Of a DNA stretch of 34,157 bases, positions 2,977 to 27,980 are shown piece after piece. Both the position numbers and the translations under genes were made by a program. Position 1 is the stretch's first letter, and the number at the start of each line of letters is the position of its first letter. The DNA comes from Mollicutes bacterium (lineage in GTDB: Bacteria; Bacillota_I; Bacilli_A; Izemoplasmatales; Izemoplasmataceae). The stretch lies in NCBI GenBank assembly GCA_003557505.1, contig PWOH01000020.1, forward strand, positions 1 through 34,157, written 5' to 3'. The notes under the pieces were generated by a model. It searched no databases and was not told where the DNA came from. It was given only the letters and a program-made list of their open reading frames with translations.

Positions 2977-2992
2977 CTCTTTGGTGAGAACA

Positions 2993-4450
2993 ATGACTAC
3001 AGATGAAAAGAAACGGTATTTAATTTTAAAAGATCCAAATATCTATAAGGGCTTAATTCTTTTAGCCCTTCCTTTAATGTTAAATAATCTTATAAAAACA
3101 TTGCACGATATCGTGGATATGTTTTTTGTTACATTTACTGATGGTGCGACTTCTTCACAAGCGGTTGCTTCTATTCAATTGACATTTCCAGTGATTTTCA
3201 CGTTTTTGTCACTCGGAATGGGGTTATCTATTGCGGGGACAGCGTTGATTTCACAAGCCATCGGTGCGGCGAAGTATGACACGGGCAAGAAGTATGCCGG
3301 ACAACTATTGTTGGTCGCGATTATTGCGGGGGTAATCTTGAATGTGCTGGCTTTTATTTCGGCCCCTTTTATTATGCGTTGGATGGGGGCGCAAGGCTTC
3401 GTCTATGAAAACAGTGTGTCCTATTTACGGATTCGTGCTTTTGAACTACCGTTTTTATTTTCCTTTTTTGCTTACCTAGGTATTCGCCAAGCCAGTGGAG
3501 ACACATTAAGTCCGGTGTTGGTCAGTGGTAGTGCCATTATTTTAAACATAATTTTGTCACCAATATTTATTATTGTATTAAATCTTGGTGTTCCAGGCGC
3601 TGCCTATGCAACCTTGATTTCACACGGTTTAATTATGCCGATTGGTATCATTAGATTATTTTTTGCCAAAGATGGCATTCGGTTAAATATTAAAGTGATT
3701 ATAGGCTCAACAATGATGAGTTTATCCGAAAGGATAACTATCATCAGAAAAATCATCAAAACGGCGATTCCGGCTTCTGTGGGACAGGCGATAACAGCCA
3801 TTGGCTTTGGCGTAATGAACGGGGTTATCTATTCGTTTGGTGAAGAGACGGTAGCCGCATTTGGGGTTGGGAATCGTCTGTTGTCGATGGTATTACACCC
3901 TGTCATGGCGATGGGGGCGATTTTATCGGCGTATATCGGTCAAAATATTGGGGCACTCAATCCATCACGTGCCAAAGAGACGTTTCGTAAATGTATGACA
4001 TTATCCGTTGGTATAATGATTGTGGGGGCGAGTGGTATCCTGGTCATTCGTGAACCCTTGGCGGCACTATTTATGGGCGATGACCCTGTAGCGCTGCAGT
4101 TGACTGTCGATTATATGTTCTTTATATTAATTGGTCTACCGCTGATGGCTATTTTTCAAACATTTATAGGGACCTATAATGGGACAGGGAATACCCATTT
4201 TACAATGATTTTATCAATTACTAGATTGTGGGTTATCCGGATACCGTTGGTATTGTTAATGGCTTATTTATTACCGGGTAGAGGTTCACGGGTTATTTGG
4301 GAGGCGATGCTTATCTCCAACTTGTTGATTGCATTTTTAGGATTTGTTTTGTATTTACGCATCGACTTTCAGCCTAAGATTGAGGTTAAAAAACCACCCA
4401 AGAAGAAAGCTGTTTCACCCACCCCCCAACCTTCGCTTAAAACTTCATAA
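2993..4450 (+). CDS. MATE family multidrug exporter
   Basis: 485 residues with about 12 hydrophobic helices in two similar halves, the standard MATE size and topology. The opening DPNIYKGLILLALPLMLNNL and later GNTHFTMILSITRLWVIRIP are characteristic of the DinF/NorM-like branch common in Bacillota. Such proteins expel cationic drugs or metabolites using a Na+ or H+ gradient; the substrate here cannot be read. ATG at 2993 follows GGTGAG at 2983-2988. The in-frame TTG at 2981 would lie at the predicted transcript start. The C-terminal tail after the last helix is a Lys/Pro-rich cytoplasmic stretch. It stands as a single transcription unit with its own terminator. Confidence 0.9.
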   Translation: MTTDEKKRYLILKDPNIYKGLILLALPLMLNNLIKTLHDIVDMFFVTFTDGATSSQAVASIQLTFPVIFTFLSLGMGLSIAGTALISQAIGAAKYDTGKKYAGQLLLVAIIAGVILNVLAFISAPFIMRWMGAQGFVYENSVSYLRIRAFELPFLFSFFAYLGIRQASGDTLSPVLVSGSAIILNIILSPIFIIVLNLGVPGAAYATLISHGLIMPIGIIRLFFAKDGIRLNIKVIIGSTMMSLSERITIIRKIIKTAIPASVGQAITAIGFGVMNGVIYSFGEETVAAFGVGNRLLSMVLHPVMAMGAILSAYIGQNIGALNPSRAKETFRKCMTLSVGIMIVGASGILVIREPLAALFMGDDPVALQLTVDYMFFILIGLPLMAIFQTFIGTYNGTGNTHFTMILSITRLWVIRIPLVLLMAYLLPGRGSRVIWEAMLISNLLIAFLGFVLYLRIDFQPKIEVKKPPKKKAVSPTPQPSLKTS

Positions 4451-6452: not shown

Positions 6453-6872
6453 ATGGAAAAAGAAATATTCAGGGAATCTTTCAATGCCTTTTTAAAGCTA
6501 TATTTCGATAGTTGTAAAGAGGTATATGAAGAACTTGATTTAAAAGGATTAAAAGAACGTCATTTCAAGTATCTTAAAGAGATTGACAAAAATGGCTCAG
6601 TTACAATGAGTGAGCTCGCAGATACATTTGAACTCTCAAAACCGACGGTTGCGGAAATGTTAAAGAAATTTGAAGACACAGGGGTCATTAAGCGGCAACG
6701 TTGTGATGACGATGCTCGTGTTATTAATATTACATTAACAGAACGCGGAAAAATCCTTGCAAAAACGAATCGCTTGGAAAGTGATCGCGCAATAGATAAA
6801 ATCTTTGCGCTACTAAGCGGAGAAGAGCTCGATGAACTCAAAACATTATTTGACAAGATAGGTAAGGTGTAA
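6453..6872 (+). CDS. MarR family transcriptional regulator
   Basis: 139 residues, the normal MarR size. The winged helix-turn-helix lies at about 49-95: MSELADTFELSKPTVAEML is the recognition part and DDDAR (85-89) the wing with the usual Asp/Arg pair, followed by the LTERG strand. The short, helical N- and C-termini would form the dimer interface. The start ATG follows GGGGTGGGACG. It is the first gene of an operon with ABC pair 1, only two bases before the next start codon. It most likely represses that operon and is released when a small molecule binds. Confidence 0.9.
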   Translation: MEKEIFRESFNAFLKLYFDSCKEVYEELDLKGLKERHFKYLKEIDKNGSVTMSELADTFELSKPTVAEMLKKFEDTGVIKRQRCDDDARVINITLTERGKILAKTNRLESDRAIDKIFALLSGEELDELKTLFDKIGKV

Positions 6873-6874
6873 TT

Positions 6875-8665
6875 ATGTTATTTTCAAAATCAATTAATAA
6901 GTATTATTTAAAATTTGCGCATCTATTCATTATTGGGGTAATCGCATTACTCGTCGTAGATTTAGCGCAACTTGAAGTACCGATTATCATCGGCCAATTG
7001 GTCGATGACTTAGAAGCGTTTAGGGCCGGTGTCTATACGCGTGATGAAGCCTTGGCTCTAGTTAACGAAATTGTGATGACCTTGGTTATTATTAGTGCGT
7101 TAATAGTTGGAGGTCGCTTCGTATGGAGAATCGGGATTATGGGTGCTTCACGCCGTATCGCTTTTGAACTGCGAAACGATATGTTTGAACATAGTTTGAA
7201 ACTGTCTAATCGTTTTTACTCAGAGCGTAAAGTCGGTGGGTTGATGGCGCTATTTATCAATGATATTGAAGCCATCCGTCGAGCACTTGGACCGGGACTC
7301 ATTATGTTTGTAGATATGATTTTCCTTGGTGGGTTGGTTTTTTGGCGGATGTATCGCATTGATGCCCGTATGACGATGATTTTAGTGCTTCCATTATTCT
7401 TAATTGCGATCGCCGGAATTATTTTAGGGAATAAAATGCGTATGCGTTTCCGTGATGCCCAGAAAGCCTTTGAAGATTTAAGTGACAATGTTCAAGAATC
7501 CTTAAGTGGAATTACGGTTATTAAAGCATTTGTCAAAGAACAACAAGAGATTAAACACTTTCTAAAAGCGAATAAAAACGCTAAAGATAAAAATATCCGC
7601 TTTGTCCGGATGCAAATGGCATTGCAAGTCGTTGTTCGTGCCATTGTATCATTGGTGTTTGTGTTAATCATTGCCTATGGAACCAACTTGGTTCAAGTAA
7701 CCGCTGGAACCGCAGATCCTTTCTCAATTGGTGATTTAGTCGCTTTCCTTTCATATTTTGGAATGTTGATTTGGCCGATGATGGCGATTTCGATGATAAT
7801 CAATGTGCGTTCCAGAGGACGTGCTAGTATTCAGCGTATTGAAGATATTCTTAATGAAACAGTTGATATTGTCGATGAGAACACTGTTAATGTTGAAAAT
7901 ATCAAAGGAGATATTGCGTTCAACAACTTATATTTCCGTTACCCCGATGCGGAACCTGATGACCATGTTCTAAAAGACATCTCTTTTGAGATTAACGCGG
8001 GAGAAATGGTCGGAATATTAGGACGAACCGGAAGTGGGAAGACCAGTATTGTTGACTTACTGTTAAGACTATATAATTTAGAACCTAATCAACTGAAAAT
8101 AGATGGCATTGATATTATGCGTCTACCGTTTAAACAAGTTAGAGAAAATATTGGTTATGTACCACAAGATGGCTTCTTATTCTCTGACACCATTAAAAAC
8201 AATATTGCCCTTGGCGTTGAGGATGAACGCGCTGATTTGGACCGTATTGAAGAGGTTGCTAAGCTTTCTGATGTGCATGATAATATTGTTCAGTTTAAAC
8301 AAGGATATAACACCGTTATTGGTGAACGTGGTGTGACATTGTCCGGTGGTCAAAAACAACGCGTTAGTATCGCAAGGGCACTCGCTAAGAATCCGCCTAT
8401 TCTAATCATGGATGATTCTGTAAGTGCAGTCGATACCTCAACCGAAGAAAAAATCTTAAAAAATCTTAAAAAAATTCGTCAAGGCAAAACGACGATTATG
8501 ATTGCGCATAGAATCTCAACCGTTAAAAATGCGGATAAGATTGTGGTTATCGATGAAGGTGAAGTCCTTGATGTAGGGACACATGATGAACTCGAAAAAC
8601 GTTGTGAGTTTTACCGCGATCTCGTGGAAAGACAACAACTAGAAGATGAAGTGGAGGTGGCATAA
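6875..8665 (+). CDS. ABC exporter half-transporter, pair 1, degenerate-site subunit
   Basis: 596 residues: a six-helix exporter membrane domain (about 15-325) and a C-terminal ATPase domain. Walker A is GRTGSGKT (383-390), the signature LSGGQ is at 489-493, and the switch His is H545. Walker B ends in Asp513-Asp514, so Asp replaces the catalytic Glu. The canonical LSGGQ completes the active ATP site of the partner. This is the pattern of the first subunit (TM287, LmrC or BmrC type) of heterodimeric multidrug exporters. SD GGTAAGGTG precedes the ATG. The stop overlaps the next start by one base (TAATG), which supports equal production of the two subunits. Drug or lipid export is inferred; the substrate is not readable. 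Confidence 0.9.
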   Translation: MLFSKSINKYYLKFAHLFIIGVIALLVVDLAQLEVPIIIGQLVDDLEAFRAGVYTRDEALALVNEIVMTLVIISALIVGGRFVWRIGIMGASRRIAFELRNDMFEHSLKLSNRFYSERKVGGLMALFINDIEAIRRALGPGLIMFVDMIFLGGLVFWRMYRIDARMTMILVLPLFLIAIAGIILGNKMRMRFRDAQKAFEDLSDNVQESLSGITVIKAFVKEQQEIKHFLKANKNAKDKNIRFVRMQMALQVVVRAIVSLVFVLIIAYGTNLVQVTAGTADPFSIGDLVAFLSYFGMLIWPMMAISMIINVRSRGRASIQRIEDILNETVDIVDENTVNVENIKGDIAFNNLYFRYPDAEPDDHVLKDISFEINAGEMVGILGRTGSGKTSIVDLLLRLYNLEPNQLKIDGIDIMRLPFKQVRENIGYVPQDGFLFSDTIKNNIALGVEDERADLDRIEEVAKLSDVHDNIVQFKQGYNTVIGERGVTLSGGQKQRVSIARALAKNPPILIMDDSVSAVDTSTEEKILKNLKKIRQGKTTIMIAHRISTVKNADKIVVIDEGEVLDVGTHDELEKRCEFYRDLVERQQLEDEVEVA

Positions 8666-10437
8666 TGTACGATATCGATACGGATAAACGACTGCATAAC
8701 TATTCTGACAAGCAGATATTGAAAAGGCTTGCCTCTTACGCAATCCCTTATACACGGTACTTTGTGCTTACATTTGTTCTTATGGTTATCTCAGTGCTTT
8801 TCGCACTGGCGGAACCTTATTTAATAGGGGTGTCTATCGACATCCTAACAGAACCCCCCGTTGATGTACGCTTTTTAACCATTGTGCTTATAGCCTTTGC
8901 GGGGTCAATCCTATTGAGTGCATTCTTCGAATATATGCAAACAATGATTCTGCAAAAAACCGGCCAACAAATTGTTTATAACATGCGTGAAGAAGTCTTT
9001 ACCCATGTTGAAACCCAAGATATTGATTATTTCAATAAAATTCCAACTGGTAAATTGGTGACGCGTGTTGCCAATGATACCAATACATTAAACGAGATGT
9101 ATACCAATGTCATTGTTAACGTATTTAGAAACCTGTTAATGATTGTGGGGATTTTAAGTGCTATGTTCATCCTAAATGCCGAATTGGCATTATTGATTTT
9201 AGCGATAACCCCATTTATCATCATATTCTCCTTTGTGTTCAGACGCTTCTCTAGAAAAGCTTATCGTACGGTTCGGGCCAACATGAGCCGTGTCAATGGC
9301 TTTTTAGCAGAACATCTCTCGGGAATGAAAGTGGTTCAAATCTTTAACAAAGAAGAAGAAAAACATGAAGAATTTGACGTCAAAAACAAAGAATTGCGAC
9401 GCAGTGAACTTCGTGAACTGCTCGTCTTTGCGATTTATCGTCCGACGATGTATATGTTATTCATGGTTTCTACCGTATTAATTTTCCTTTATGGTGGACG
9501 CCAAGTCATCGCAGGAACACTGACGGTCGGGGTTTTGGTTAGTTTTTATAATTATTTGAGACGTTTCTTTGAACCGATTCAGCAACTTGCCGAACAATTT
9601 AACATTGTGCAATCGGCATTTGCTTCCAGTGAACGTATCTTCGCGATACTGGATGCACACCCTGAAGTACTTGATGAACCCGATGCTATGAAAATTGATG
9701 AAGTCCGCGGTGATATTGAGTTTAAAAATGTCTGGTTCCGCTATGTCGAAGACGAATGGGTTTTAAAAGATGTCAGCTTTAAAGTAAATGCCAAAGAAAG
9801 TGTAGCATTCGTGGGGGCAACAGGCGCAGGTAAAACGACTATCCTAAGCCTGTTGACTCGCGATTATGATATCCAAAGTGGCCAGATTTTACTTGATGGA
9901 ATCGATATTACAAAAATCAAGATATCATCCTTGCGCAGCCATGTAGGTCAGATGTTACAAGATGTATTTATGTTTAGTGGAACCATCAAATCTAACATTA
10001 CCCTACGTGATGAAGACATTACTGATGAAGAAGTAGTTGAAGCCTGCAAATATGTCAATGCAGATAAATTTATCAATAAATTGCCTAAAAAATACGACGA
10101 ACCTGTTCGCGAACGCGGTAATAACTATTCTGCAGGGCAACGTCAATTGATTAGCTTTGCCAGAACACTTGTCCACAAACCAAACATTATGATCCTTGAT
10201 GAAGCAACCGCAAATATTGATACCGAGACCGAAGAACTGATTCAGGAATCCCTTAAAAAAATGATGAATATCGGTACGATGCTTATCGTAGCGCATAGAT
10301 TATCGACAATACAACATGTTGATAAGATTATCGTCTTACAACAAGGAGAAATTCTTGAACAAGGGTCTCACCAGGAGTTGCTCCAACAAAAAGGCCATTA
10401 TTACTACTTATACAAGTTACAATATGAAGACCAATAA
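8665..10437 (+). CDS. ABC exporter half-transporter, pair 1, catalytic-site subunit
   Basis: 590 residues with the same membrane-plus-ATPase layout. Walker A is GATGAGKT (384-391), Walker B ends in Asp512-Glu513 (normal catalytic Glu), and the switch His is H544. The signature is YSAGQ (488-492) in place of LSGGQ. It therefore complements the upstream protein: its own Walker A/B with the partner LSGGQ makes the working ATP site, while its altered signature faces the partner's Asp-Asp site. SD GGAGGTGG lies inside the end of the upstream gene. It is the last gene of the marR operon, followed by a terminator. Confidence 0.9.
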   Translation: MYDIDTDKRLHNYSDKQILKRLASYAIPYTRYFVLTFVLMVISVLFALAEPYLIGVSIDILTEPPVDVRFLTIVLIAFAGSILLSAFFEYMQTMILQKTGQQIVYNMREEVFTHVETQDIDYFNKIPTGKLVTRVANDTNTLNEMYTNVIVNVFRNLLMIVGILSAMFILNAELALLILAITPFIIIFSFVFRRFSRKAYRTVRANMSRVNGFLAEHLSGMKVVQIFNKEEEKHEEFDVKNKELRRSELRELLVFAIYRPTMYMLFMVSTVLIFLYGGRQVIAGTLTVGVLVSFYNYLRRFFEPIQQLAEQFNIVQSAFASSERIFAILDAHPEVLDEPDAMKIDEVRGDIEFKNVWFRYVEDEWVLKDVSFKVNAKESVAFVGATGAGKTTILSLLTRDYDIQSGQILLDGIDITKIKISSLRSHVGQMLQDVFMFSGTIKSNITLRDEDITDEEVVEACKYVNADKFINKLPKKYDEPVRERGNNYSAGQRQLISFARTLVHKPNIMILDEATANIDTETEELIQESLKKMMNIGTMLIVAHRLSTIQHVDKIIVLQQGEILEQGSHQELLQQKGHYYYLYKLQYEDQ

Positions 10438-13301: not shown

Positions 13302-13323
13302 AAATTTATAAGAGGTGTATGAC

Positions 13324-14733
13324 ATGAAGATACTCACTAATCTCCTATCCTCGCTTATCGAAATCATCAATGGATATATAACGCTAATACTGGCAATCGG
13401 TGCGGTGGTGATCATCGCGCTGATTGTCTTTAACATAGTGCGTTTTATCTCATTACGTCAAATGCGACAATTACTGTATTACGATGATTTGACCGGGGTG
13501 AAAAAAAGCGCATATTTAGAGAAGAAGTTCAATGATATTTTAGTTGAGCTTGATCGTGATGCGACACTTTTTTATATCAATATTGATAATTTTAAAAATT
13601 ATAACGACTTATTTGGTTATCAAACCGCCAATCGTATTTTAGCTGAATTTGGCAAACGCCTTTTAGAACTTAGTCAACCCTATCATCATGTCTTCAGAGT
13701 GCATAGCGATCGTTTCATTATGATCTATCCTGAAAAAAACGATCAGTTCGGTCATCAAATTCTCAAACGGCTAAAAGAACCTTATGATGTTGAGGAACAG
13801 TCATTTAGTCTAACTGTTTCGATGGGAAGTTATAAAATCAGCGAAACCAATCCCCGTTTTTACGAAATTCTGTTACGCGGAGAGCTTGCCTTAGAACGTG
13901 CTAAAAGTGTTGGGAAAGACCAGTGGATTGCTTATAGTGAAGGCATGAAAGAAAAACATCATAACGCCTTTGATATGTATACTTTTATTAAAGATGCTTT
14001 AAAAAACGAACAGTTTTTCTTAGAGTTTCAGCCGATTGTTTCATCAAAGACAAAACAGATGGTGGGCCTTGAATCCCTCATCCGTTTTGAAGATAAACGC
14101 CGCCTGATATTTCCGTCGGAATTGATCAGCTATGCTGAAAAGTTTAACCTAATTGAAGAAATTGACCGTTATGTTGTGGAAAAAAGTTTCGAGGCCTACC
14201 AGATTTTCAAACAAAAAGGTCTTAAATTTTCGTTTTTAGCGGTTAATGTTTCCAGTTCAGAGATTAATGATGATACGTTTGTAGAATACTTAGCAACAAC
14301 AGCCAAATACTATGATGTTGATCCTAAATCGATTGTCATTGAGTTTACGGAAACTGCTGATCCAAATAAACTGGAAAACGAATCGCGTTTTATTGAACAG
14401 GTTCGCTCCCTTGGTTTCAAAGTTGCGATTGATGATTTTGGGAGTGGGTATTCCAGTATGTTGCGATTGTCAAAAAACACTCTTGATCGTATAAAAATTG
14501 ATAAATCTTTTGTGAATGACATTATGCAATCATCATCAAACCAAAACCTTGTTGAAGCCATGGTAGGTCTTGCACGGGCATTTAATCTCGAAGTGATTGT
14601 CGAAGGTGTCGAAACCGAAGAAGATTATTTATTTATGAAATCTTTAAATATAGAATATGTACAAGGCTATTATTTTTATAAACCCCACCCACTTAATGAA
14701 ATTATTGATATGTTTACCAACAAAAATAATTAG
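13324..14733 (+). CDS. membrane-bound GGDEF-EAL protein, degenerate GGDEF, probable c-di-GMP phosphodiesterase
   Basis: 469 residues from ATG 13324, chosen because GAGGTG ends six bases earlier; the in-frame GTG at 13315 lies within that site. One membrane helix (about 18-42) is followed by a GGDEF domain (about 52-205). Its signature reads HSDRF (127-131), so cyclase activity is unlikely. The EAL domain (about 218-465) keeps the metal and catalytic residues: Glu250 (in ESL), Asn308, Glu340, Asp370-Asp371 (DDFGSG), Lys394, the EGVET stretch and Gln447 (QGY). It should hydrolyse c-di-GMP, possibly with GTP binding by the GGDEF part as control. It follows the aldo/keto reductase closely, with no terminator seen after it. 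Confidence 0.88.
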   Translation: MKILTNLLSSLIEIINGYITLILAIGAVVIIALIVFNIVRFISLRQMRQLLYYDDLTGVKKSAYLEKKFNDILVELDRDATLFYINIDNFKNYNDLFGYQTANRILAEFGKRLLELSQPYHHVFRVHSDRFIMIYPEKNDQFGHQILKRLKEPYDVEEQSFSLTVSMGSYKISETNPRFYEILLRGELALERAKSVGKDQWIAYSEGMKEKHHNAFDMYTFIKDALKNEQFFLEFQPIVSSKTKQMVGLESLIRFEDKRRLIFPSELISYAEKFNLIEEIDRYVVEKSFEAYQIFKQKGLKFSFLAVNVSSSEINDDTFVEYLATTAKYYDVDPKSIVIEFTETADPNKLENESRFIEQVRSLGFKVAIDDFGSGYSSMLRLSKNTLDRIKIDKSFVNDIMQSSSNQNLVEAMVGLARAFNLEVIVEGVETEEDYLFMKSLNIEYVQGYYFYKPHPLNEIIDMFTNKNN

Positions 14734-15371: not shown

Positions 15372-15390
15372 CAGTGACATATCGTCATTG
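15372..15390. promoter_or_regulatory. probable TetR operator
   Basis: CAGTGAC-ATATC-GTCATTG is a 19-base palindrome with one mismatch in 7-base arms. It ends three bases before the Shine-Dalgarno of the tetR gene, between the upstream terminator and the operon. Its size fits a TetR dimer site. No clear -35/-10 pair was seen around it. Confidence 0.5.
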
Positions 15391-15405
15391 ATAAGGAGAG
15401 TTTTT

Positions 15406-16014
15406 ATGCCAAAATCAACATTTTTAAATCTCGCTTCACCCAAAAGAAATCATATTGAAAATAAAGCACGTGAAGTCTTTTTAAACAATCCCTATAACAA
15501 AGTCACTATTTCTTTAATCGTTAAAACCGTTGGAATTCCCAGGGGGAGTTTCTATCAATATTTCGAAGATCTCGAAGACCTTTATCAATATCTTTTCGAA
15601 CAAACGATTAATGAATATGAGACCTATGTTTATGGTCGACTGGAAAACAGTCCGACCACGGATATGTTTTCCTTTGCCAAAGAAGGGTTTGAGTCCGATT
15701 ATCGTTTTTTAAAGACTACGGATTATTATGAGTTGATGCGAAAATTCTTCAAGGAACGTCATATGATTGGCATCAATATTGATTTCTTTCAAAAGAAAAA
15801 ATCTAAATTTCATGAGATGATGCTCAGACGCTTTAATAAAGAAAATGTCTCCCATTTACCCCATGATAAACAGTTGAAATTGGTGCGTTTGATTTCTCAT
15901 CTTAAATTTCAACTTATCCATAAGATCATTAGCGATAAATCGACCTATGATGAAGCATATGAAGACTTTTCTTTCTATGTCGATATGTTGAGTCATGGTG
16001 TGAAAGAAGTGTAG
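15406..16014 (+). CDS. TetR/AcrR family transcriptional regulator
   Basis: 202 residues. The DNA-binding domain is N-terminal: KAREVFLNNPYNKVTISLIV, then GIPRGSFYQYFEDLEDLY (about 43-60), the usual TetR helix-turn-helix block. The C-terminal helical part, which would bind the ligand and dimerise, has no recognisable subtype. ATG at 15406 is used, seven bases after AAGGAG; a TTG at 15388 lies inside the operator palindrome. Three bases separate its stop from ABC pair 2, so it very probably represses the exporter operon it heads. Confidence 0.88.
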   Translation: MPKSTFLNLASPKRNHIENKAREVFLNNPYNKVTISLIVKTVGIPRGSFYQYFEDLEDLYQYLFEQTINEYETYVYGRLENSPTTDMFSFAKEGFESDYRFLKTTDYYELMRKFFKERHMIGINIDFFQKKKSKFHEMMLRRFNKENVSHLPHDKQLKLVRLISHLKFQLIHKIISDKSTYDEAYEDFSFYVDMLSHGVKEV

Positions 16015-16017
16015 TCT

Positions 16018-17781
16018 ATGAAAGAAATATTGCGTTTAATGCGTTATGCTGGTCGTTTTCCCGGCTTTTTATTGATTGCCTTGTTAACCATGGTTGTGCA
16101 AGTTTTCGCATCGTTTTACATTCCGTTTTTAATGATAGATATTATTGATGTATATTTGCCAGCTCGTGATTTTGACAATGTGATTATGACATCACTGATT
16201 ATGTTAGGGATTGCCCTAGGCGGTATTGTCGGTGGAATTATTAACACTTATACATCCCAATATATCGCGCAATATGCCACTGCGGATTTACGTCTTGATT
16301 TATTTAATAAGATTCAAACACTTTCCTTCCGTAATGTCGATGCGTTTAAACAAAGTCGTTTAATCACCAATGCGACCAATGATGTTTTACGCGTTCAAAT
16401 GTTTTTTACCATGATGTTACGCATTGTTGTTCGAGCCCCCATGATGATTGTAATGGGGCTTATTTTAGCATTACAAACCTCAGGTTTGCTTTCACAAGTC
16501 TTTTATATTACTATTCCGATGTTGGCAATTAGTATATTGATTATCATGTTTTTTGCCTACCCTCGGTTTAAGAAAGTTCAAGTGGCACTTGATGATTTAA
16601 ATAATGTCGTTTTGGAAACTGCCAACGCGCCTCAGGTTATCAAATCATTTGTCTCTCAAGATCATGAGCGTCAACGCTTCGAAGCAACCAATGAACAATA
16701 TCGCAATGTCAATACCAGTGCGGAAACGGTTATGGCGTTTGCGGAACCCGTTATTCAGTTTATTTTTAACATTGGTATTGCGGGTATTTTATTGTTTGCG
16801 GCGTATTATCTCAATCAAGGTGAACTGATGATCAATGGCTCACCGCGTATCGGGGTTATTATGGCTTTTCAAAACTACAGCATGCAAATTTTGGTAGGTC
16901 TGATGATGTTTGCGATGATTATGATTTTCCTCTCACGTGCCAATGTCTCTGCAGCGCGTATTAATGAAATCTTCGATGCTAAAATCGATCTAGTTAATCC
17001 TGAAAACGGAAAGCGACCAGAAATCCGCGGCTCGATTACCTTTAATGAGGTGGCGTTTAGTTATGGTGATGATGGCAACGATGCGGTATCTAATCTTAAT
17101 TTTACGATCAATAAAGGTGAGAAAATTGGAATCATCGGTTCCACCGGTAGTGGTAAATCAACGCTGACTTATCTCATTCCAAGATTATATGATGTTAGAA
17201 AGGGCCAAGTCCTTATTGACGACACCGATGTACGAGTGATGGACATTAACCATTTGTGTGATAATATCGGGTATGTGACCCAAAATGCGACAATTTTCAG
17301 TGGCTCTATTGCGACGAATATGTTTCAAGGTAATGAAGACGCTGATTTTGATGCGCTTGAAGAAAGTTCTAAACAAGCGTTGTTGCATGATTTTATTCAT
17401 GAACAAGAAGATCATTACAATTACTTGATTAAATCCAAAGGCGTCAACCTTTCAGGGGGGCAAAAACAACGGCTCAGTATTGCAAGAGCGATGATTAAAA
17501 AACCAGCCATTCTGATTTTTGATGATGCCACCAGTGCCGTTGATGCATCCAGTGAACAAAAGATTCTTAATCATATCAACGGACTTGCTTATAATCCGAC
17601 GTTGTTATTGATATCACAAAAGGTTTCAACGGTTCGTAAGATGAATCGTATTTTAGTCCTTGATAACGAAGGTCATGTTGATGGGTTTGGACACCATGAT
17701 GAACTAATAAATACCTCGAAAACGTATCAAGAAATTGCTCATTCACAACTCGGCAATGGAGGTGGTTATGGTGTCGAATAA
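16018..17781 (+). CDS. ABC exporter half-transporter, pair 2, degenerate-site subunit
   Basis: 587 residues, six membrane helices then an ATPase domain. Walker A is GSTGSGKS (374-381) and the signature LSGGQ is at 478-482. Walker B ends in Asp502-Asp503, so the catalytic Glu is replaced. The switch His is also replaced, by Gln534 (LISQKVST). The double change makes this ATP site clearly non-hydrolytic, as known for the TM287-type subunit of heterodimeric exporters. Only a weak SD (AAGAAGTG) precedes the ATG, and reinitiation after the tetR stop three bases upstream is likely. The 3' end overlaps the partner start by 14 bases. Confidence 0.9.
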   Translation: MKEILRLMRYAGRFPGFLLIALLTMVVQVFASFYIPFLMIDIIDVYLPARDFDNVIMTSLIMLGIALGGIVGGIINTYTSQYIAQYATADLRLDLFNKIQTLSFRNVDAFKQSRLITNATNDVLRVQMFFTMMLRIVVRAPMMIVMGLILALQTSGLLSQVFYITIPMLAISILIIMFFAYPRFKKVQVALDDLNNVVLETANAPQVIKSFVSQDHERQRFEATNEQYRNVNTSAETVMAFAEPVIQFIFNIGIAGILLFAAYYLNQGELMINGSPRIGVIMAFQNYSMQILVGLMMFAMIMIFLSRANVSAARINEIFDAKIDLVNPENGKRPEIRGSITFNEVAFSYGDDGNDAVSNLNFTINKGEKIGIIGSTGSGKSTLTYLIPRLYDVRKGQVLIDDTDVRVMDINHLCDNIGYVTQNATIFSGSIATNMFQGNEDADFDALEESSKQALLHDFIHEQEDHYNYLIKSKGVNLSGGQKQRLSIARAMIKKPAILIFDDATSAVDASSEQKILNHINGLAYNPTLLLISQKVSTVRKMNRILVLDNEGHVDGFGHHDELINTSKTYQEIAHSQLGNGGGYGVE

Positions 17782-19651
17782 TAAAGAAATCCTATCAAAA
17801 AAAGCGCTTAATGAAAGGCTTAAAGCCGAGATTGACCCAACCGACCCCAAAAACTTCAAAGGTGGCATGCGTCGACGCGATACACCGCCTGTAGGGGCTA
17901 AACCCAAAAATATCCGTGAGACTTTATTTCGCTTGCTATCTTACATGGGAGTTTATAAATACGCGGTGTTAATGGTCTTTTTATCCTTAATCGCTGCGAC
18001 CTTTGCAACCCTTTATATACCGACCTTATTTGCGAATTCCATAGACCGTTATATCGATCTTGATGATTTCTCTCGTTTTGATCCCACTAATTTATATCGC
18101 ATTGTCATTATTATGGCAGTGCTGGCTGGAATCGGGAGCATCATTCGTTTCTTTTCACGGTTTATTATGGTACGCATCTCTCAAAATGTCGTGAAAAAAA
18201 TCCGTGAAGAAGCCTATGACAAACTCATGAAAGCCCCAGTTGATTATTATGATAAACAAGGCAGTGGTGATATTGTCAGTCGATTGAGTAATGACGTTGA
18301 ACTGATTTCCAATTCATTGGGACAAACCGTCCTAGAAGTATTAAATTCTTCGATTGTCTTACTAGGTGCGTTTGTGCTTATGTTTTTACTTAACTGGGCG
18401 TTAGGGTTAGTAGTAATCGCTTTTATTCCCATTATGATCTTGTTTACGATTAAAATCAGTAAGAAAACGCGTAAAGGATTTAAAGAACAGCAAGTGCATT
18501 TGGCAAGTTTGAATGGAATCATTGAAGAAAGTGTCAGTGGACTTAAAACCGTTAAACTATATAACCAGGAAAAACCTTTCACCGATGAATTTGAAATTGA
18601 AAATGACAAACTGAAGAAAGCCGGCTTTATGGCTCAGTTTTATTCCGGACTGATTTGGCCGTTTATTCATTTTATGAACAACCTGATTTTCCTTAGTGTC
18701 ATTGCGGCTGGGGCGGTTTTATATTTATTCACTCCACTTGTGACCATTGGACAGATTGCCGGTGTCTCACAATATTCAAGACAGTTTATCATGCCCATCA
18801 GTAATCTTGCGCAACTATTCAATGCTTTGATGCAAGGGATCGCAGGCGCGGAAAGGGTCTTTGAACTGATTGATGCTGAAGATGAATACGAAAACGATGG
18901 GGAACTAGCCATTGATCAATTTGACGGCGACATCAGCTTTGAAAATGTGACGTTTGGCTATACTGAAGATGTCGTGGTGTTAAAAGATATTTCCTTCTTT
19001 GCGAAAAAAGGGGAAGTGATTGCAATTGTTGGTCCCACAGGCGGCGGAAAGACAACCACTATTAAGTTACTCAATCGTTTTTATGACATCAATGCCGGTG
19101 AAATTAAGATTGATGATAAAAATATTAATACCTTGCAAAAAGATGAACTCAGACGTCGCATTGGCGTGGTGCTTCAAGATACGCACCTTTTCAAAGGCAC
19201 CGTTTATGACAACATTCATTATGGGGACTTCACCGCCGACAAGGAGGCGGTCATAGAAGCCGCTAAAATGGCGAACGCCCACGACTTTATCATTAAATTG
19301 CCAAAAGGCTATGAGACTGAAGTCTATGAGGGCGGACAAAACTTCTCACAAGGTGAACGTCAGTTGATTAGTATTGCCAGAACCATCCTCAATAACCCTG
19401 ACCTCTTGATTCTTGATGAGGCAACGTCGAATATTGACACTAGAACTGAAGCAAAAATACAAGAAAGTATGCGCCGTTTAATGAAAGACAGAACCTCAAT
19501 CGTCATTGCCCACCGACTGCAAACAATCCGTGAAGCCAACAAGATTCTCGTCATTGATCATGGAAAACTCATTGAAAGTGGCGACCATGAAGAATTACTT
19601 AATGCTAAAGGATTTTATTACGGCCTCTACAAAGCGCAATTTGAACAATAA
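17768..19651 (+). CDS. ABC exporter half-transporter, pair 2, catalytic-site subunit
   Basis: 627 residues. A hydrophilic N-terminal extension of about 50 residues precedes the first membrane helix, which is common in the longer partner of such pairs. Walker A is GPTGGGKT (422-429), Walker B ends in Asp550-Glu551, and the switch His is H582. The signature is FSQGE (526-530) rather than LSGGQ. The start is ATG 17768, five bases after GGAGG; GTG 17771 is an alternative. It overlaps the upstream partner by 14 bases and ends the tetR operon. The substrate is not readable from sequence. Confidence 0.9.
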   Translation: MVSNNKEILSKKALNERLKAEIDPTDPKNFKGGMRRRDTPPVGAKPKNIRETLFRLLSYMGVYKYAVLMVFLSLIAATFATLYIPTLFANSIDRYIDLDDFSRFDPTNLYRIVIIMAVLAGIGSIIRFFSRFIMVRISQNVVKKIREEAYDKLMKAPVDYYDKQGSGDIVSRLSNDVELISNSLGQTVLEVLNSSIVLLGAFVLMFLLNWALGLVVIAFIPIMILFTIKISKKTRKGFKEQQVHLASLNGIIEESVSGLKTVKLYNQEKPFTDEFEIENDKLKKAGFMAQFYSGLIWPFIHFMNNLIFLSVIAAGAVLYLFTPLVTIGQIAGVSQYSRQFIMPISNLAQLFNALMQGIAGAERVFELIDAEDEYENDGELAIDQFDGDISFENVTFGYTEDVVVLKDISFFAKKGEVIAIVGPTGGGKTTTIKLLNRFYDINAGEIKIDDKNINTLQKDELRRRIGVVLQDTHLFKGTVYDNIHYGDFTADKEAVIEAAKMANAHDFIIKLPKGYETEVYEGGQNFSQGERQLISIARTILNNPDLLILDEATSNIDTRTEAKIQESMRRLMKDRTSIVIAHRLQTIREANKILVIDHGKLIESGDHEELLNAKGFYYGLYKAQFEQ

Positions 19652-19659
19652 TACCCATG

Positions 19660-19685
19660 AAAAGGCTCATTTTGAGCCTTTTTTT
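19660..19685 (+). terminator. terminator of the tetR-ABC operon
   Basis: A 10-bp perfect stem (19660-19669 with 19673-19682) with a 3-base loop runs into a T tract. Confidence 0.92.
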
Positions 19686-19706
19686 ATTTATTAACATAAA
19701 AAAAGG

Positions 19707-19735
19707 TTGAAAACGGTTTATCGCTATGATATTGT
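19707..19735 (+). promoter_or_regulatory. promoter of the leader and ABC pair 3
   Basis: TTGAAA (19707-19712) and TATTGT (19730-19735) are 17 bases apart, with an extended -10 TG at 19727-19728. The predicted start near 19742 gives a leader of about 200 bases before the first ABC gene. Confidence 0.6.
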
Positions 19736-19780
19736 AATTAATGTGAAGTAAAAAGTCTTGACAGATTGCGGGTGTTAACA

Positions 19781-19861
19781 ATGCTTAAACAACCACTTTT
19801 TGACACATTTACATATCTGAATCATCACTCCAATCGAGCCGAGTGCATCTTTTACGCATGA
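19781..19861 (+). CDS. short leader peptide ORF (26 codons) upstream of ABC pair 3
   Basis: ATG at 19781 opens a frame ending in TGA at 19859-19861. The peptide begins MLKQPLFDTF and ends AECIFYA, with a His-His-Ser stretch in the middle. A weak ribosome site (GGGTG) stands six bases before the ATG. The frame lies between a promoter and an intrinsic terminator that precedes the exporter genes. This is the layout of ribosome-mediated attenuation as described for bmrB upstream of the B. subtilis exporter genes bmrCD. Drug-slowed translation of the peptide would let polymerase pass the terminator. The role is inferred from layout; the peptide sequence was not matched to a known one. Confidence 0.55.
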   Translation: MLKQPLFDTFTYLNHHSNRAECIFYA

Positions 19862-19881
19862 TTTTAATGCAAGAAGACCAT

Positions 19882-19919
19882 AGACTCCTTTATCGTTTGG
19901 ATAAGGAGTCTTTTTTTTA
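19882..19919 (+). terminator. intrinsic terminator inside the leader of ABC pair 3 (probable attenuator)
   Basis: Arms AGACTCCTT (19882-19890) and AAGGAGTCT (19903-19911), with further pairing near the loop, run into eight T. It lies 21 bases after the leader ORF stop and 28 bases before the ABC start. No gene of ordinary size ends before it, so it is expected to control the downstream genes. Confidence 0.85.
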
Positions 19920-19946
19920 TTTTATTGAATTTGCGAGGTGAACCCT

Positions 19947-21740
19947 ATGAAACGATTAAAACAGTTTTACCAATGGATGAAAGGATTCATCCATCTCTAT
20001 ATATTTGGATTTGCGCTACTAATTATGGCGCAATATCTAACAACCCTAACACCACTGTTCATTCAACACATTGTTGACAGTATTTTTGGTGATGCGCCTT
20101 CAGCGCTTCCTAATCTCATTCAAGGATTGTTGATTGGAGAAACGACGCAGCGTATCTTATTAATGGTGGCGCTTGTGAGTGTCGGATTTACGCTAATTCG
20201 TTTAACCATTGTGTTTTTCCAACGTGTTGTGATTGCGCATTTCTCTGAAAATGTAGCCTATAGTATGCGCAATACCCTCTATGCCCACTTACAAGATCTT
20301 TCATTTTCTTATCATTCAACCGCTGAGACTGGCGATCTCATCCAACGCTCCACCACGGATGTTGATACGTTTCGACGGTTTATCGGTGAACAATTCATCG
20401 ATGTCGTACGTTTGTTTTTCTTGATGAGTTTCGCGGTCTTTCAAATGTTTTTGATGAACGTCACCATGACTTTTATTTCCTTAATCATGACGCCTATTAT
20501 TTTTGTGAGTGCGTCTGTATACTTTGTGAAAGTCCGTAAAATCTTTGAGCGTGTTGAAAAAGCAGAAGGGAAGATGACCAACGCTGTTCAGGAAAACGTC
20601 AGTGGTTCAAGGGTTGTTAAGGCTTTCCAAAACGAACGTTATGAAATGGACAAATTTGATGAAACATCACAAGTATTCCGAGATGAAAATATGTTGTTGT
20701 CGAAGCTAATGGCTTTCTTTTGGTCCGGCACTGACTTTATGATTTTCCTGCAGTACACACTGACCGCGTCTTTTGGGATTTACTTCACTATTATGGGCAA
20801 CATGGCACCCGGACAGTTCATCGCCTTTTTAAGTCTACTGGGGATGATTGTATGGCCCCTTCGTCAACTGGGCCGGATCATCGGTGATTTTGGGAAAACG
20901 TCTGTCGCACTTGATCGGATTGATGAGGTCATGGCAGAAGGCAGTGAACACGTTGATGATTCAACGTTTACGCCTGAAATTAAAGGACACATCACATTTA
21001 ACAACGTCGGATTTCAATTCGATGATGATGTCTCACCGCTTTTAAAAAATATCAATTTTGATGTGAAGCCCGGGGAAACCTTAGCGGTCATCGGAAAAAC
21101 GGGGAGCGGGAAATCGACATTAATGAGTTTACTTGTCCGTTTACTGGAAACCACCCATGGTGGCATCACTATTGATGGACATGACATACGCTCCATCAAT
21201 AAGAAACACCTTAGAAAAAATATCGGCATTATCTTGCAAGAACCCTTTTTATTTTCAAAAACCGTTTATGAAAATATCGGCATTATGAAAAAAGGCGCCA
21301 ACAAGGAAAGTGTTGAACATGCCGCATCAATCGCAAAAGTTCATGATGATATTCTCGGCTTTGAAGCTGGGTATAAAACCATTGTGGGTGAACGTGGTGT
21401 TACCTTATCAGGGGGGCAAAAACAACGTGTTGCGATTGCTAGAATGCTCCTTGAAAATAAGCCAGTTTTAGTCTTTGATGATTCTTTGAGTGCTGTGGAT
21501 ACCGAGACAGATATTCAAATCAGACGTGCTTTAATGCACCACTGGCAAAACACCACCGTCTTTATCATTACCCACCGCATTACCACCGCGATGGAAGCGG
21601 ATAAAATCATTGTCTTAGAAGACGGTGAAATCAAAGCCTTTGGCAATCACGCTACTCTATTAGAAGAAGATGGGCTTTATGCTTCACTCTACAACCAACA
21701 AACCAATGTCGCATCGACACTTAGAAAGGAGGGTCAATGA
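19947..21740 (+). CDS. ABC exporter half-transporter, pair 3, degenerate-site subunit
   Basis: 597 residues with exporter membrane domain and ATPase domain. Walker A is GKTGSGKS (383-390), LSGGQ is at 487-491, Walker B ends in Asp511-Asp512 with no catalytic Glu, and the switch His is H543. It is thus the same type of subunit as the first genes of pairs 1 and 2. The start is ATG 19947, following GAGGTGA; the in-frame GTG at 19938 lies within that Shine-Dalgarno. Expression is probably set by the leader terminator just upstream. By layout it is comparable to BmrC; a drug substrate such as a ribosome-targeting antibiotic is a reasonable but unproven expectation. Confidence 0.9.
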   Translation: MKRLKQFYQWMKGFIHLYIFGFALLIMAQYLTTLTPLFIQHIVDSIFGDAPSALPNLIQGLLIGETTQRILLMVALVSVGFTLIRLTIVFFQRVVIAHFSENVAYSMRNTLYAHLQDLSFSYHSTAETGDLIQRSTTDVDTFRRFIGEQFIDVVRLFFLMSFAVFQMFLMNVTMTFISLIMTPIIFVSASVYFVKVRKIFERVEKAEGKMTNAVQENVSGSRVVKAFQNERYEMDKFDETSQVFRDENMLLSKLMAFFWSGTDFMIFLQYTLTASFGIYFTIMGNMAPGQFIAFLSLLGMIVWPLRQLGRIIGDFGKTSVALDRIDEVMAEGSEHVDDSTFTPEIKGHITFNNVGFQFDDDVSPLLKNINFDVKPGETLAVIGKTGSGKSTLMSLLVRLLETTHGGITIDGHDIRSINKKHLRKNIGIILQEPFLFSKTVYENIGIMKKGANKESVEHAASIAKVHDDILGFEAGYKTIVGERGVTLSGGQKQRVAIARMLLENKPVLVFDDSLSAVDTETDIQIRRALMHHWQNTTVFIITHRITTAMEADKIIVLEDGEIKAFGNHATLLEEDGLYASLYNQQTNVASTLRKEGQ

Positions 21741-23551
21741 TGCAACACTTTGAAGAAGAAACGTATCAGGACATGTCGCTGAATACCTCGACATGGAAAC
21801 GCATATTCAGTTTTATGCGTCCTTTAAAACGCTACATTGTCATTGTCATCATTTTAGCGACCCTCCTTGCGGTGGCGGATGTATCCTATCCGCTGATTAA
21901 CCGTTATGGGATAGATACCATTATCAAAGATGGTGACCTAAGTAAAATACCGCTGTTCATTGCTATTTATGTCTTTTATATGATTTTTGTGGCGGTATTA
22001 GTGTTTTCGTTTATCTATTTTGCGGAAAAGTTGCAACACAATCTTGCTTATATTATCCGGAAAAAAGCTTTTACCAAATTGCAGGAACTGCCTTTCTCTT
22101 ATTATGACAGAACGCCGGCAGGTTGGATTATGGCACGGATGACCTCAGACACCAGACAATTATCAGACATCCTCTCCTGGGGACTTGTCGATATTACGTG
22201 GGGTGGCATGATGATGATCATGTTGATCGTCGTGATGTTTGTCCTTAACGTTCAATTAACCTTGATTACCTTAGCGGTTATGCCGTTACTTATTTATCTT
22301 TCGTGGTTTTTTAGAAAAAGAATTTTAAAAGCTTACCGCGATATCCGTAAACAAAATTCAAAAATTACCGGTGCCTTTAATGAAGGCATCACTGGCGCTA
22401 AAACGACAAAAACTCTTGTCTTAGAGGAGAGTAACTACAACGATTTTGATGCTTTAACGTCGAATATGCGCAAACACAGTATTAAAGCGGCGGTATTTGC
22501 ATCACTATATTTTCCTTCAATTCTCTTTATCGCTTCGATTGCGACCGCATTGATCTTTTATTATGGTGGGATTGATGTTTCCAATGAGGTCATTACCATC
22601 GGCTTACTTTATGTATTTGTCAGTTACGTGGGTCAGTTCTTTGACCCCATCATGCAGTTGGCTAACTCTTTGGCCCAATTCCAACAAGCCCAAGCCAGTG
22701 CGGAACGCGTGGTCAGTCTGATTGATGCGACCCCTGATATTACGGACACTGCCGAAGTTATTGCAAAATACGGTACCATTGAAAACCCTAAAACAGAAAA
22801 CTGGGAACCTTTGCATGGGGCCGTTACTTTTGACAATGTCACCTTCAAATATAAAAAAGGGGAAAAAGTGCTCAGTGATTTCAACTTACATGTCAAACAA
22901 GGAGAATCGATTGCGCTTGTGGGTCATACCGGTGCTGGAAAGAGTACAATTGTTAATCTGGTATGTCGTTTTTATGAACCAAGTGAAGGCCGTGTACTGA
23001 TTGATGGGAAAGACTACAAGGAACGCTCTATGCACTGGCTGCATGCACACTTGGGCTATGTTTTACAAAGCCCTGAATTATTTAGCGGCACCATTCGCGA
23101 AAATATTCGCTATGGCCGTTTGGAGGCTACCGATAGCGAAGTAGAAGATGCCGCCAAACTTGTGGGCGCGCATGACTTCATCATTACCTTTAAAGACGGT
23201 TATGACACCGAAGTATCGGAAGGTGGCTCACGCTTATCAGTGGGTCAAAAACAATTGATCAGCTTTGCCAGAGCACTACTTGCCAAACCCCGTATTTTGA
23301 TTCTCGATGAAGCCACAAGTTCAGTCGATACTGAGACTGAATTAAAGATTCAAAGTGCTATTCAGACCGTTATGGAAGGGCGGACCTCATTCATCATTGC
23401 GCACCGTCTTTCAACCATTATCAACGCCGATCGCATTTTGGTGTTGGAACATGGTCAAATTCTTGAGAGTGGAACGCATGAGGAGCTACTTGAAAAAGGT
23501 GAACATTACTATAAACTTTACACCAATCAATTTAAAGAAGTGCCCCTCTAA
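21737..23551 (+). CDS. ABC exporter half-transporter, pair 3, catalytic-site subunit
   Basis: 604 residues. Walker A is GHTGAGKS (396-403), Walker B ends in Asp524-Glu525, and the switch His is H556. The signature is LSVGQ (500-504), one residue off consensus. The linker before the ATPase domain (IENPKTENWEPLHG) is typical of the LmrD/BmrD-like partners of Bacillota. The start overlaps the upstream stop as ATGA; a second ATG at 21740 is equally possible, with AGGAGG seven bases before it. It is the last gene of the leader-controlled operon. Confidence 0.9.
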   Translation: MMQHFEEETYQDMSLNTSTWKRIFSFMRPLKRYIVIVIILATLLAVADVSYPLINRYGIDTIIKDGDLSKIPLFIAIYVFYMIFVAVLVFSFIYFAEKLQHNLAYIIRKKAFTKLQELPFSYYDRTPAGWIMARMTSDTRQLSDILSWGLVDITWGGMMMIMLIVVMFVLNVQLTLITLAVMPLLIYLSWFFRKRILKAYRDIRKQNSKITGAFNEGITGAKTTKTLVLEESNYNDFDALTSNMRKHSIKAAVFASLYFPSILFIASIATALIFYYGGIDVSNEVITIGLLYVFVSYVGQFFDPIMQLANSLAQFQQAQASAERVVSLIDATPDITDTAEVIAKYGTIENPKTENWEPLHGAVTFDNVTFKYKKGEKVLSDFNLHVKQGESIALVGHTGAGKSTIVNLVCRFYEPSEGRVLIDGKDYKERSMHWLHAHLGYVLQSPELFSGTIRENIRYGRLEATDSEVEDAAKLVGAHDFIITFKDGYDTEVSEGGSRLSVGQKQLISFARALLAKPRILILDEATSSVDTETELKIQSAIQTVMEGRTSFIIAHRLSTIINADRILVLEHGQILESGTHEELLEKGEHYYKLYTNQFKEVPL

Positions 23552-26188: not shown

Positions 26189-27859
26189 TTATACTTCTAA
26201 TTCAGGAAATACCCTTTCTAACGCCTGCACCACATGTGGGCAATAATAAATATCACTTAAGCGCTTGATTTCTTCGAGTGCTTTTTGTTTGTTCATGGCA
26301 GCTTGATAATTGCGTTCACGCGTCATTGTTTCAAACGAATCAATGACACGGAAAATCTTTGAAATTAAAGGAATCTCTTCTTCATTAAGTCCAAACGGAT
26401 ACCCAGAGCCATCAACGTTTTCATGATGGGTTAATATCGCATAGGCAACATTTTTAAGTTTTGGCAATGCATTGGCAATGCGGTAACCAATCTCACTGTG
26501 TCGTTCAATCTCTTTTTTCTCTTCATCAGTCAGTTTAGCAGCATTTTCATAGATGGAATAATCGATACTGATTTTTCCGATGTCATGGAGTTCGATTAAA
26601 AGTCTGAGTTCACGTTGTTCTTGGGAATTTAAATCAAGGACACTAATTAAAGGTTGCGCAATTTTTTTAAGCCGTTCGATATGGACTTCCGATTCATCGG
26701 TGTTCTGTAAAAGGGTATATTTCAAACTTTCGATGATTGAAGCGGTTTGTTTGTTGTATTCATGGATTTTGTCTTTATATAACATGTTCTCCGCACGAAT
26801 AAAGGCAGTTTTGAAGCTTTCATTATCAAGTTTACGTGTATAACCAAACGCCGCCGAAGGAATAATATCTTCTTTGCCGTTATGACGAATATTTTTCTTT
26901 ATGGACTGCGCAATTTCTTTAATTTGATTGGTCTTATAATCTTCGAGTAAAATCACAAACTCATCGCCACCAATGCGGGCAATGGTTGCTGTTTTTGGAA
27001 AGTGGTCTTTTAAACAATTGGAAAATTTAATTAACAACTCGTCACCATGGGTATGACCAAAGACATCATTGACAAGCTTTAATCCGTTGATATCGGCGAG
27101 GACAATTCCCATATTGTGATGTTTATCATAGCGCTTGATAATTTCGTTGTAATACCGGCGATTAAATAATCCTGTTAAATCGTCATGATAAGAATCATGG
27201 GTGAGTTCTTTCTCTTTGGTTTTTTGCTCAGTAATATTGATCGCACTGGACAAGATTACTTTTAAGCCATCCTCATCATAACCGATGTAAGAAGTATACC
27301 AGTGAAAATGAACAGCTTCACCGGATTTGGTTTGAAGTTTGGTGGGCCCTTCATCCAAAGTGCCTTCCAAATCATAAAGCGCCATGATTTTGCGGTAGTA
27401 TTCATCTGTATTCATCGGATAAGCTTTTTCAACCCAAGCTCGCATTGTCGGAATTTCTTTGGCGGTATATCCAGTTATGGTCTCAAAAACATCGCTCACT
27501 AATTTAATGCGTTTATTTTCAGTGTGTAAGATCATGGGGATTGGAGCTGATTTAATGGCTGAATAAAACATGGCTTTTTTGTTTTCATATAAGGTAAGAT
27601 ATTCGGATTGTGTATCCCTGAGTTTTTGGGTAGTTTGTTCTTGAGAGTGCCGATAGCGAATTTGGGCACTGATACTGATAAAAATAATCGCTGCCGATCC
27701 CCATACAAACAGCAATCCTTTGATAATTGAAAAATACACGAACTCTTCCAGTGATTCGTTGATTGTGAAGAAGAACCAATCCGAAAACACTATCCATATT
27801 GTCGCAAATATCGCATATACTGTAGCGACAACTAATGCATCCTTCTTTTTATACCCCAT
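26189..27859 (-). CDS. membrane PAS-GGDEF-HD-GYP protein (c-di-GMP synthesis and breakdown)
   Basis: 556 residues from ATG 27859; the in-frame GTG at 27868 is too close to the GGGAT ribosome site. Two membrane helices (about 8-32 and 42-66) are followed by a PAS sensor (about 95-215), a GGDEF domain (about 222-370) with an intact RIGGDEF (GGDEF at 297-301), and an HD-GYP domain (about 380-556) with HDIGK (425-429), HHE (478-480) and GYP (486-488). Both catalytic sets are complete, so it may make and degrade c-di-GMP according to the PAS input. Its stop lies six bases from the tRNA-Leu 3' end on the opposite strand, with no terminator between. Confidence 0.88.
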   Translation of the reverse strand: MGYKKKDALVVATVYAIFATIWIVFSDWFFFTINESLEEFVYFSIIKGLLFVWGSAAIIFISISAQIRYRHSQEQTTQKLRDTQSEYLTLYENKKAMFYSAIKSAPIPMILHTENKRIKLVSDVFETITGYTAKEIPTMRAWVEKAYPMNTDEYYRKIMALYDLEGTLDEGPTKLQTKSGEAVHFHWYTSYIGYDEDGLKVILSSAINITEQKTKEKELTHDSYHDDLTGLFNRRYYNEIIKRYDKHHNMGIVLADINGLKLVNDVFGHTHGDELLIKFSNCLKDHFPKTATIARIGGDEFVILLEDYKTNQIKEIAQSIKKNIRHNGKEDIIPSAAFGYTRKLDNESFKTAFIRAENMLYKDKIHEYNKQTASIIESLKYTLLQNTDESEVHIERLKKIAQPLISVLDLNSQEQRELRLLIELHDIGKISIDYSIYENAAKLTDEEKKEIERHSEIGYRIANALPKLKNVAYAILTHHENVDGSGYPFGLNEEEIPLISKIFRVIDSFETMTRERNYQAAMNKQKALEEIKRLSDIYYCPHVVQALERVFPELEV

Positions 27860-27980
27860 AAAAATCACATCCCTACTTGTATTTTAGCATAAAATAATAA
27901 ATATACAATTGCTTTAGGTATCAATAAAATTCTAAACAAGCGTCTGTGTTTTTAGAACTTTATTTTCGACCATAATGCGC

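Follow-up and report, generated by a model that had tools for sequence, protein, structure and literature searches.

The exporter gene pair that ends at position 23551 of the window (the whole 34,157-nt stretch analyzed here) is probably controlled by a ribosome-mediated transcription attenuator, in which a promoter, a short leader ORF and an intrinsic terminator precede the first of the two genes (Table 1). Most of the family preserves this layout: 34 other leaders (35 with the window), each upstream of the orthologous exporter pair, show promoter, Shine-Dalgarno sequence (SD), ORF and terminator in the same order. Conservation and layout in these relatives strongly support the proposal of an earlier, sequence-only reading that a leader ORF and an attenuating terminator stand before the exporter pair, and re-inspection of the window found all of its positions for the promoter, ORF, terminator, SD and ABC gene to be correct.

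Table 1. Features of the leader and the exporter genes (positions in the window).
Feature	Position	Strand	Details
Promoter, extended -10	19707-19735	+	-35 TTGAAA 19707-19712; 17-nt spacer; -10 TATTGT 19730-19735; TG before -10
Segment A, leader SD region	19766-19774	+	weak SD GGGTG (19770-19774); can pair with 19826-19833
Leader ORF, MLKQPLFDTFTYLNHHSNRAECIFYA	19781-19861	+	ATG 19781 to TGA 19861; 26 codons; frame conserved in 35 leaders
Segment B, CACTCCAA	19826-19833	+	pairs with A; from duplex energy and cross-species permutation
Segment B', candidate antiterminator strand	19835-19844	+	CGA + GAGT; pairs with TCG 19893-19895 and ACTC 19884-19887
Hairpin over stop codon	19848-19877	+	apex of predicted antiterminator
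Intrinsic terminator	19882-19918	+	stem 19882-19911; T8 19911-19918
SD and first half-exporter	19935-21740	+	SD GAGGTGA 19935-19941; ATG 19947; degenerate Walker B, DD
Second half-exporter	21737-23551	+	canonical Walker B, DE

Both genes 3' of the leader encode ABC half-exporters (PF00664 plus PF00005), and together they look like a heterodimer with one degenerate site, as in heterodimeric multidrug exporters; the nearest bacterial PDB heterodimers by sequence are TM287/288, TmrAB, and BmrCD. The host draft genome is 1.53 Mb, and the window is a dense efflux region, with three pairs of ABC half-exporters (6453-10437, 15388-19651, and 19947-23551) and a MATE-family gene (2981-4450). Two of the three ABC pairs adjoin MarR or TetR genes, which fits the earlier suggestion that protein repressors control pairs 1 and 2. 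The window also encodes a GGDEF-EAL protein (13315-14733) and a PAS-GGDEF-HD protein (26189-27868), whose cyclic-di-GMP type domains are unexpected in a wall-less Mollicutes relative.

The promoter matches the consensus at 9 of 12 positions, a score that is not rare alone (30 found against 26.3 expected in the scanned stretch); by eye, the leaders of relatives have equal -35/-10 spacing upstream. RNA polymerase would start near 19742 and produce a leader RNA containing the 26-codon ORF. The 5' end of this RNA (19743-19755, GTGAAGTAAAAAG) resembles those of the genus-mates L013 and L014, and pairs with the terminator U tract in the minimum-energy fold. The terminator is outside the ORF, beginning 20 nt after the leader stop codon, and its T tract lies 28 nt 5' of the exporter start codon. 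Its hairpin is strong in the window (-14.8 kcal/mol, z -4.6; none of 200 shuffles as good), and it covaries in the relatives, with 98.7% of cells paired, a level that none of 500 shuffles reached. Being on the same strand as the upstream ABC operon and downstream of it, the hairpin could in principle be a leftover second terminator of that operon. We find this barely credible: the upstream operon ends at its own terminator, as had been claimed, which we locate at 19659-19683; the promoter lies between the two terminators; and the leader and terminator persist where relatives have another gene upstream.

The leaders of other genera place a further gene under the same element. In 13 of the 34 (L092-L102, L104, L106), an ABC-F gene directly follows the terminator and is in turn followed by the exporter pair, so that the operon order in these sister genera is leader-ABCF-ABC-ABC. 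The ABC-F protein scores 428.5 bits against the NCBI model 'ribosomal protection-like ABC-F' (NF000355; cut-off 380), and both of the two proteins scanned are above the cut-off. A search at E 1e-100, run without a positive control, found no ABC-F in 13 genomes of the genera that lack the insertion, the window's included. The gene 5' of the leader in the ABC-F clade (L101:962-1828 and its orthologs) has a weak similarity to dihydrolipoamide acyltransferase (28 bits against a cut-off of 445).

A covariance model constructed from the ABC-F-clade leaders only, with the window excluded, matches the window best at 19744-19916 (27.8 bits, E 0.0027), the next match scoring 14.2 bits. In whole genomes this model also returns matches that score 37-42 bits yet look spurious, so the proof lies in synteny and layout and not in the score by itself. 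Across 247 genomes of the class, the model found convincing matches only in the window's family, and the two other matches inspected, L128 and L132, were rejected as leaders because they overlap or sit inside ORFs and look spurious. Genome G031 has a second leader copy (L131:1501-1757; peptide MIKRMNIQMTYAISNNAFFVMQIPSQLIGL), located 48 nt 5' of a gene for a GNAT-domain acetyltransferase. The leader was not seen in 16 upstream regions of orthologs in a sister family of the same order (f3), where another gene lies upstream with a short gap, nor were plasmid copies of a relative's leader found. A peptide-pattern search of named genomes matched only a close relative of the host (G005). The first cultured Izemoplasma is Xianfuyuplasma coldseepsis zrk13 (PMC8397711).

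The leader ORF is presumably translated in vivo. Across the 35 leaders the median open stretch is 28 codons in its frame, as compared to 1 in the two other frames (p 1.5e-12, a statistic partly helped by ATGA starts and by the relatedness of the leaders), and the ORF is 16-36 codons long. The consistent length, the SD, and the stop codon before the terminator would be hard to explain otherwise than by translation. The peptide itself is divergent among family leaders; a conserved peptide end, which the sequence-only reading had set as a test, is not found, the ORF being kept and the peptide sequence not. Because the peptide sequence is poorly conserved, the signal read is probably the position of the ribosome and not an arrest peptide.

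A drug-dependent arrest peptide of the ErmCL/MsrDL type, in which a specific motif of the nascent peptide halts the ribosome in the presence of the drug and the halted ribosome itself blocks the terminator, would have a candidate motif in many ABC-F-clade leaders: FFVM-like sequences close to the ORF end are superficially like the MYLIFM of MsrDL, and a ribosome stalled there would leave B' just free. The motif is absent from the window peptide and its genus, and in L097, and in L018 versus L026, the U-run/CAUG nucleotides are preserved while the reading frame over them shifts, which points to a putative constraint at the RNA level, namely pairing with the start region. We therefore rejected the FFVM motif as a general rule, and consider an arrest peptide unlikely. 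An amino-acid or metabolite attenuator (trp-like, T-box, or riboswitch) would share the generic anatomy of leader and terminator. It is very unlikely here, given that the leader ORF has no regulatory codon runs, that Rfam yields no match at gathering score and sub-threshold matches only, and that the downstream genes encode exporters and a ribosome-protection-like ABC-F.

To look for alternative pairings, each of the 35 leaders was cut into segments, including the SD/start region (A), the last 12 codons (B), and the 5' and 3' arms of the terminator (C and D), and the within-species duplex energy of 21 segment pairs was compared to that of partners permuted between species; the resulting p-values are not exact, the species being related. 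The terminator pairing gave the strongest signal (z -13.4), followed family-wide by A:B (z -6.1) and by B:C (z -3.1, p 0.0014), the latter being the candidate antiterminator. P:C and M:D follow with weaker signals (z -2.9 and z -2.7, respectively); both pass p 0.005, perhaps partly by chance with 21 tests. The SD showed no permutation signal with either arm of the terminator (A:C, A:D), where A:C is blind if both sides are invariant. All three complementary pairs named in the sequence-only reading are present as sequence in the window, and two of them, CACTC/GAGTG and TGCAT/ATGCA, could form hairpins there; the third, GGAGT/ACTCC, which would join the ORF end to the terminator 3' arm, lacks cross-species support in the permutation (B:D, p 0.82).

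In the ABC-F clade, A:B is 100% paired, two leaders having A-U in place of a G-C pair, and does not overlap B':C. The terminator 5' arm of this clade is almost invariant and its 3' arm varies, a pattern that a second pairing partner of the 5' arm would be expected to produce. The aligned B':C helix has no double compensatory changes. Most relatives are predicted to form a hairpin between the end of the ORF and the terminator. Among the hold-out leaders, which were unused in forming the idea, A:B is kept in most (z -0.9 to -3.1), and B:C is clear in one of five. Neither pairing stands out in the window: A:B has an energy of -11.9 kcal/mol (z +0.6, not significant), and B':C (19835-19844 with 19884-19895) has -5.6 kcal/mol, no stronger than shuffles. 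The window's leader SD is also weaker than in most relatives, and its ORF runs on for two codons beyond the stop position of the genus-mates L013 and L015. The copy in the window has thus drifted somewhat, and most of the weight falls on inference from the family.

Equilibrium folding with varied ribosome masks gave the terminator a mean probability of 0.93-0.96 whichever part was masked. We accordingly rejected a static thermodynamic switch; as equilibrium always favors the terminator, any switching must be kinetic. When the stop region was masked before the 3' arm had been made, pairing of the 5' arm was modestly lower in 26 of the 35 leaders than with a mid-ORF ribosome, a shift in the direction that the mechanism proposed below predicts. 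The bias of the equilibrium folds toward the terminator, together with the weak alternative pairings in the window, would also suit constitutive damping, in which the terminator does no more than reduce transcription of the exporter genes and the ORF plays no part in regulation. The strong conservation of frame and SD across the family and the significant A:B and B:C complementarity argue against this explanation, which we think improbable.

For the favored reading, ribosome-mediated attenuation, we propose the following mechanism. Ribosomes that translate freely to the stop codon would cover the end of the ORF (B') and leave the terminator 5' arm free; the terminator would then fold and end transcription ahead of the exporter genes. 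When ribosomes are slow, stalled, or absent, B' would be free to pair with the emerging 5' arm, with the small hairpin at the apex; no terminator would then form and the ABC exporter pair would be transcribed. The pump would probably be made only when ribosomes are slowed, for example by antibiotics. Ribosome sensing fits because the sister genera place an ABC-F ribosome-protection-like gene under an equivalent leader. We infer that the signal is a ribosome-targeting antibiotic; translation inhibitors are favored since the leader stands before ABC-F and the ABC pair in the sister genera, and once before a GNAT gene. The switching itself, and the direction in which A:B would act, are likewise proposed.

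Because A:B and B':C use separate stretches of the leader in the ABC-F clade, a leader that is not translated may be ON. This prediction could be taken further, to a self-latching leader in which the final codons of the ORF are paired with its SD and start codon: without translation the start site would be locked, and the neighboring antiterminator would form. The absence of translation would then mean ON and translation to the end OFF, opposite to bmrB and vmlR, in a module common to the ABC-F and ABC-exporter operon that had moved before at least one other gene; we offer this only tentatively and regard it as doubtful. The leaders would add free-living wall-less bacteria to those in which drug exporters are under ribosome-sensing attenuation, would put a ribosome-protection-like ABC-F and an exporter under the control of a single RNA switch, and supply 35 natural variants for testing antiterminator pairings.

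The leaders share two features with bmrB, vmlR, and msrDL: a short ORF that has an initiation region lies between the promoter and the terminator, and the terminator before the gene is intrinsic. In the bmrB-bmrCD system of Bacillus subtilis, a leader ORF and an intrinsic terminator likewise precede a heterodimeric ABC exporter, and lincomycin-induced readthrough has been demonstrated (PMC4191407). That leader ORF differs in having 53 codons and the terminator inside it, whereas here the terminator is 3' of the stop codon. Blocked translation of bmrB lowers expression (PMC4191407), whereas the anatomy here suggests the opposite; start-codon or SD mutants of both the bmrB and vmlR leaders lose expression (PMC4191407, PMC9226507), and untranslated leaders of the window's family may, unlike these, be ON.

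The vmlR leader of B. subtilis is similar: its short uORF sits in a stem and may differ in identity, its antiterminator carries an apex hairpin, and an intrinsic terminator precedes a gene that copes with ribosome-targeting drugs (PMC9226507). It differs in its three-codon uORF, its single-stranded SD, and an anti-antiterminator that overlaps the antiterminator (PMC9226507); here, the ORF has 16-36 codons, the SD/start region pairs with the last codons, and A:B is clear of B':C in the ABC-F clade. The msrDL-msrD system resembles the ABC-F clade in its order of leader peptide, terminator, and ABC-F gene, with ribosome-mediated transcription attenuation in msrDL (PMC10314930). MsrDL is a six-residue macrolide arrest peptide (PMC10314930), whereas a conserved arrest peptide is absent here. 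In the patAB attenuator of Streptococcus pneumoniae, a terminator directly before a heterodimeric ABC exporter limits its transcription, and alternative stems are predicted; patAB differs in that no leader peptide is shown (PMC4319486). The kind of switch is known, bmrB/vmlR-like in its working and resembling the patAB attenuator, and the set of such attenuators in the window's family appears to be undescribed so far.
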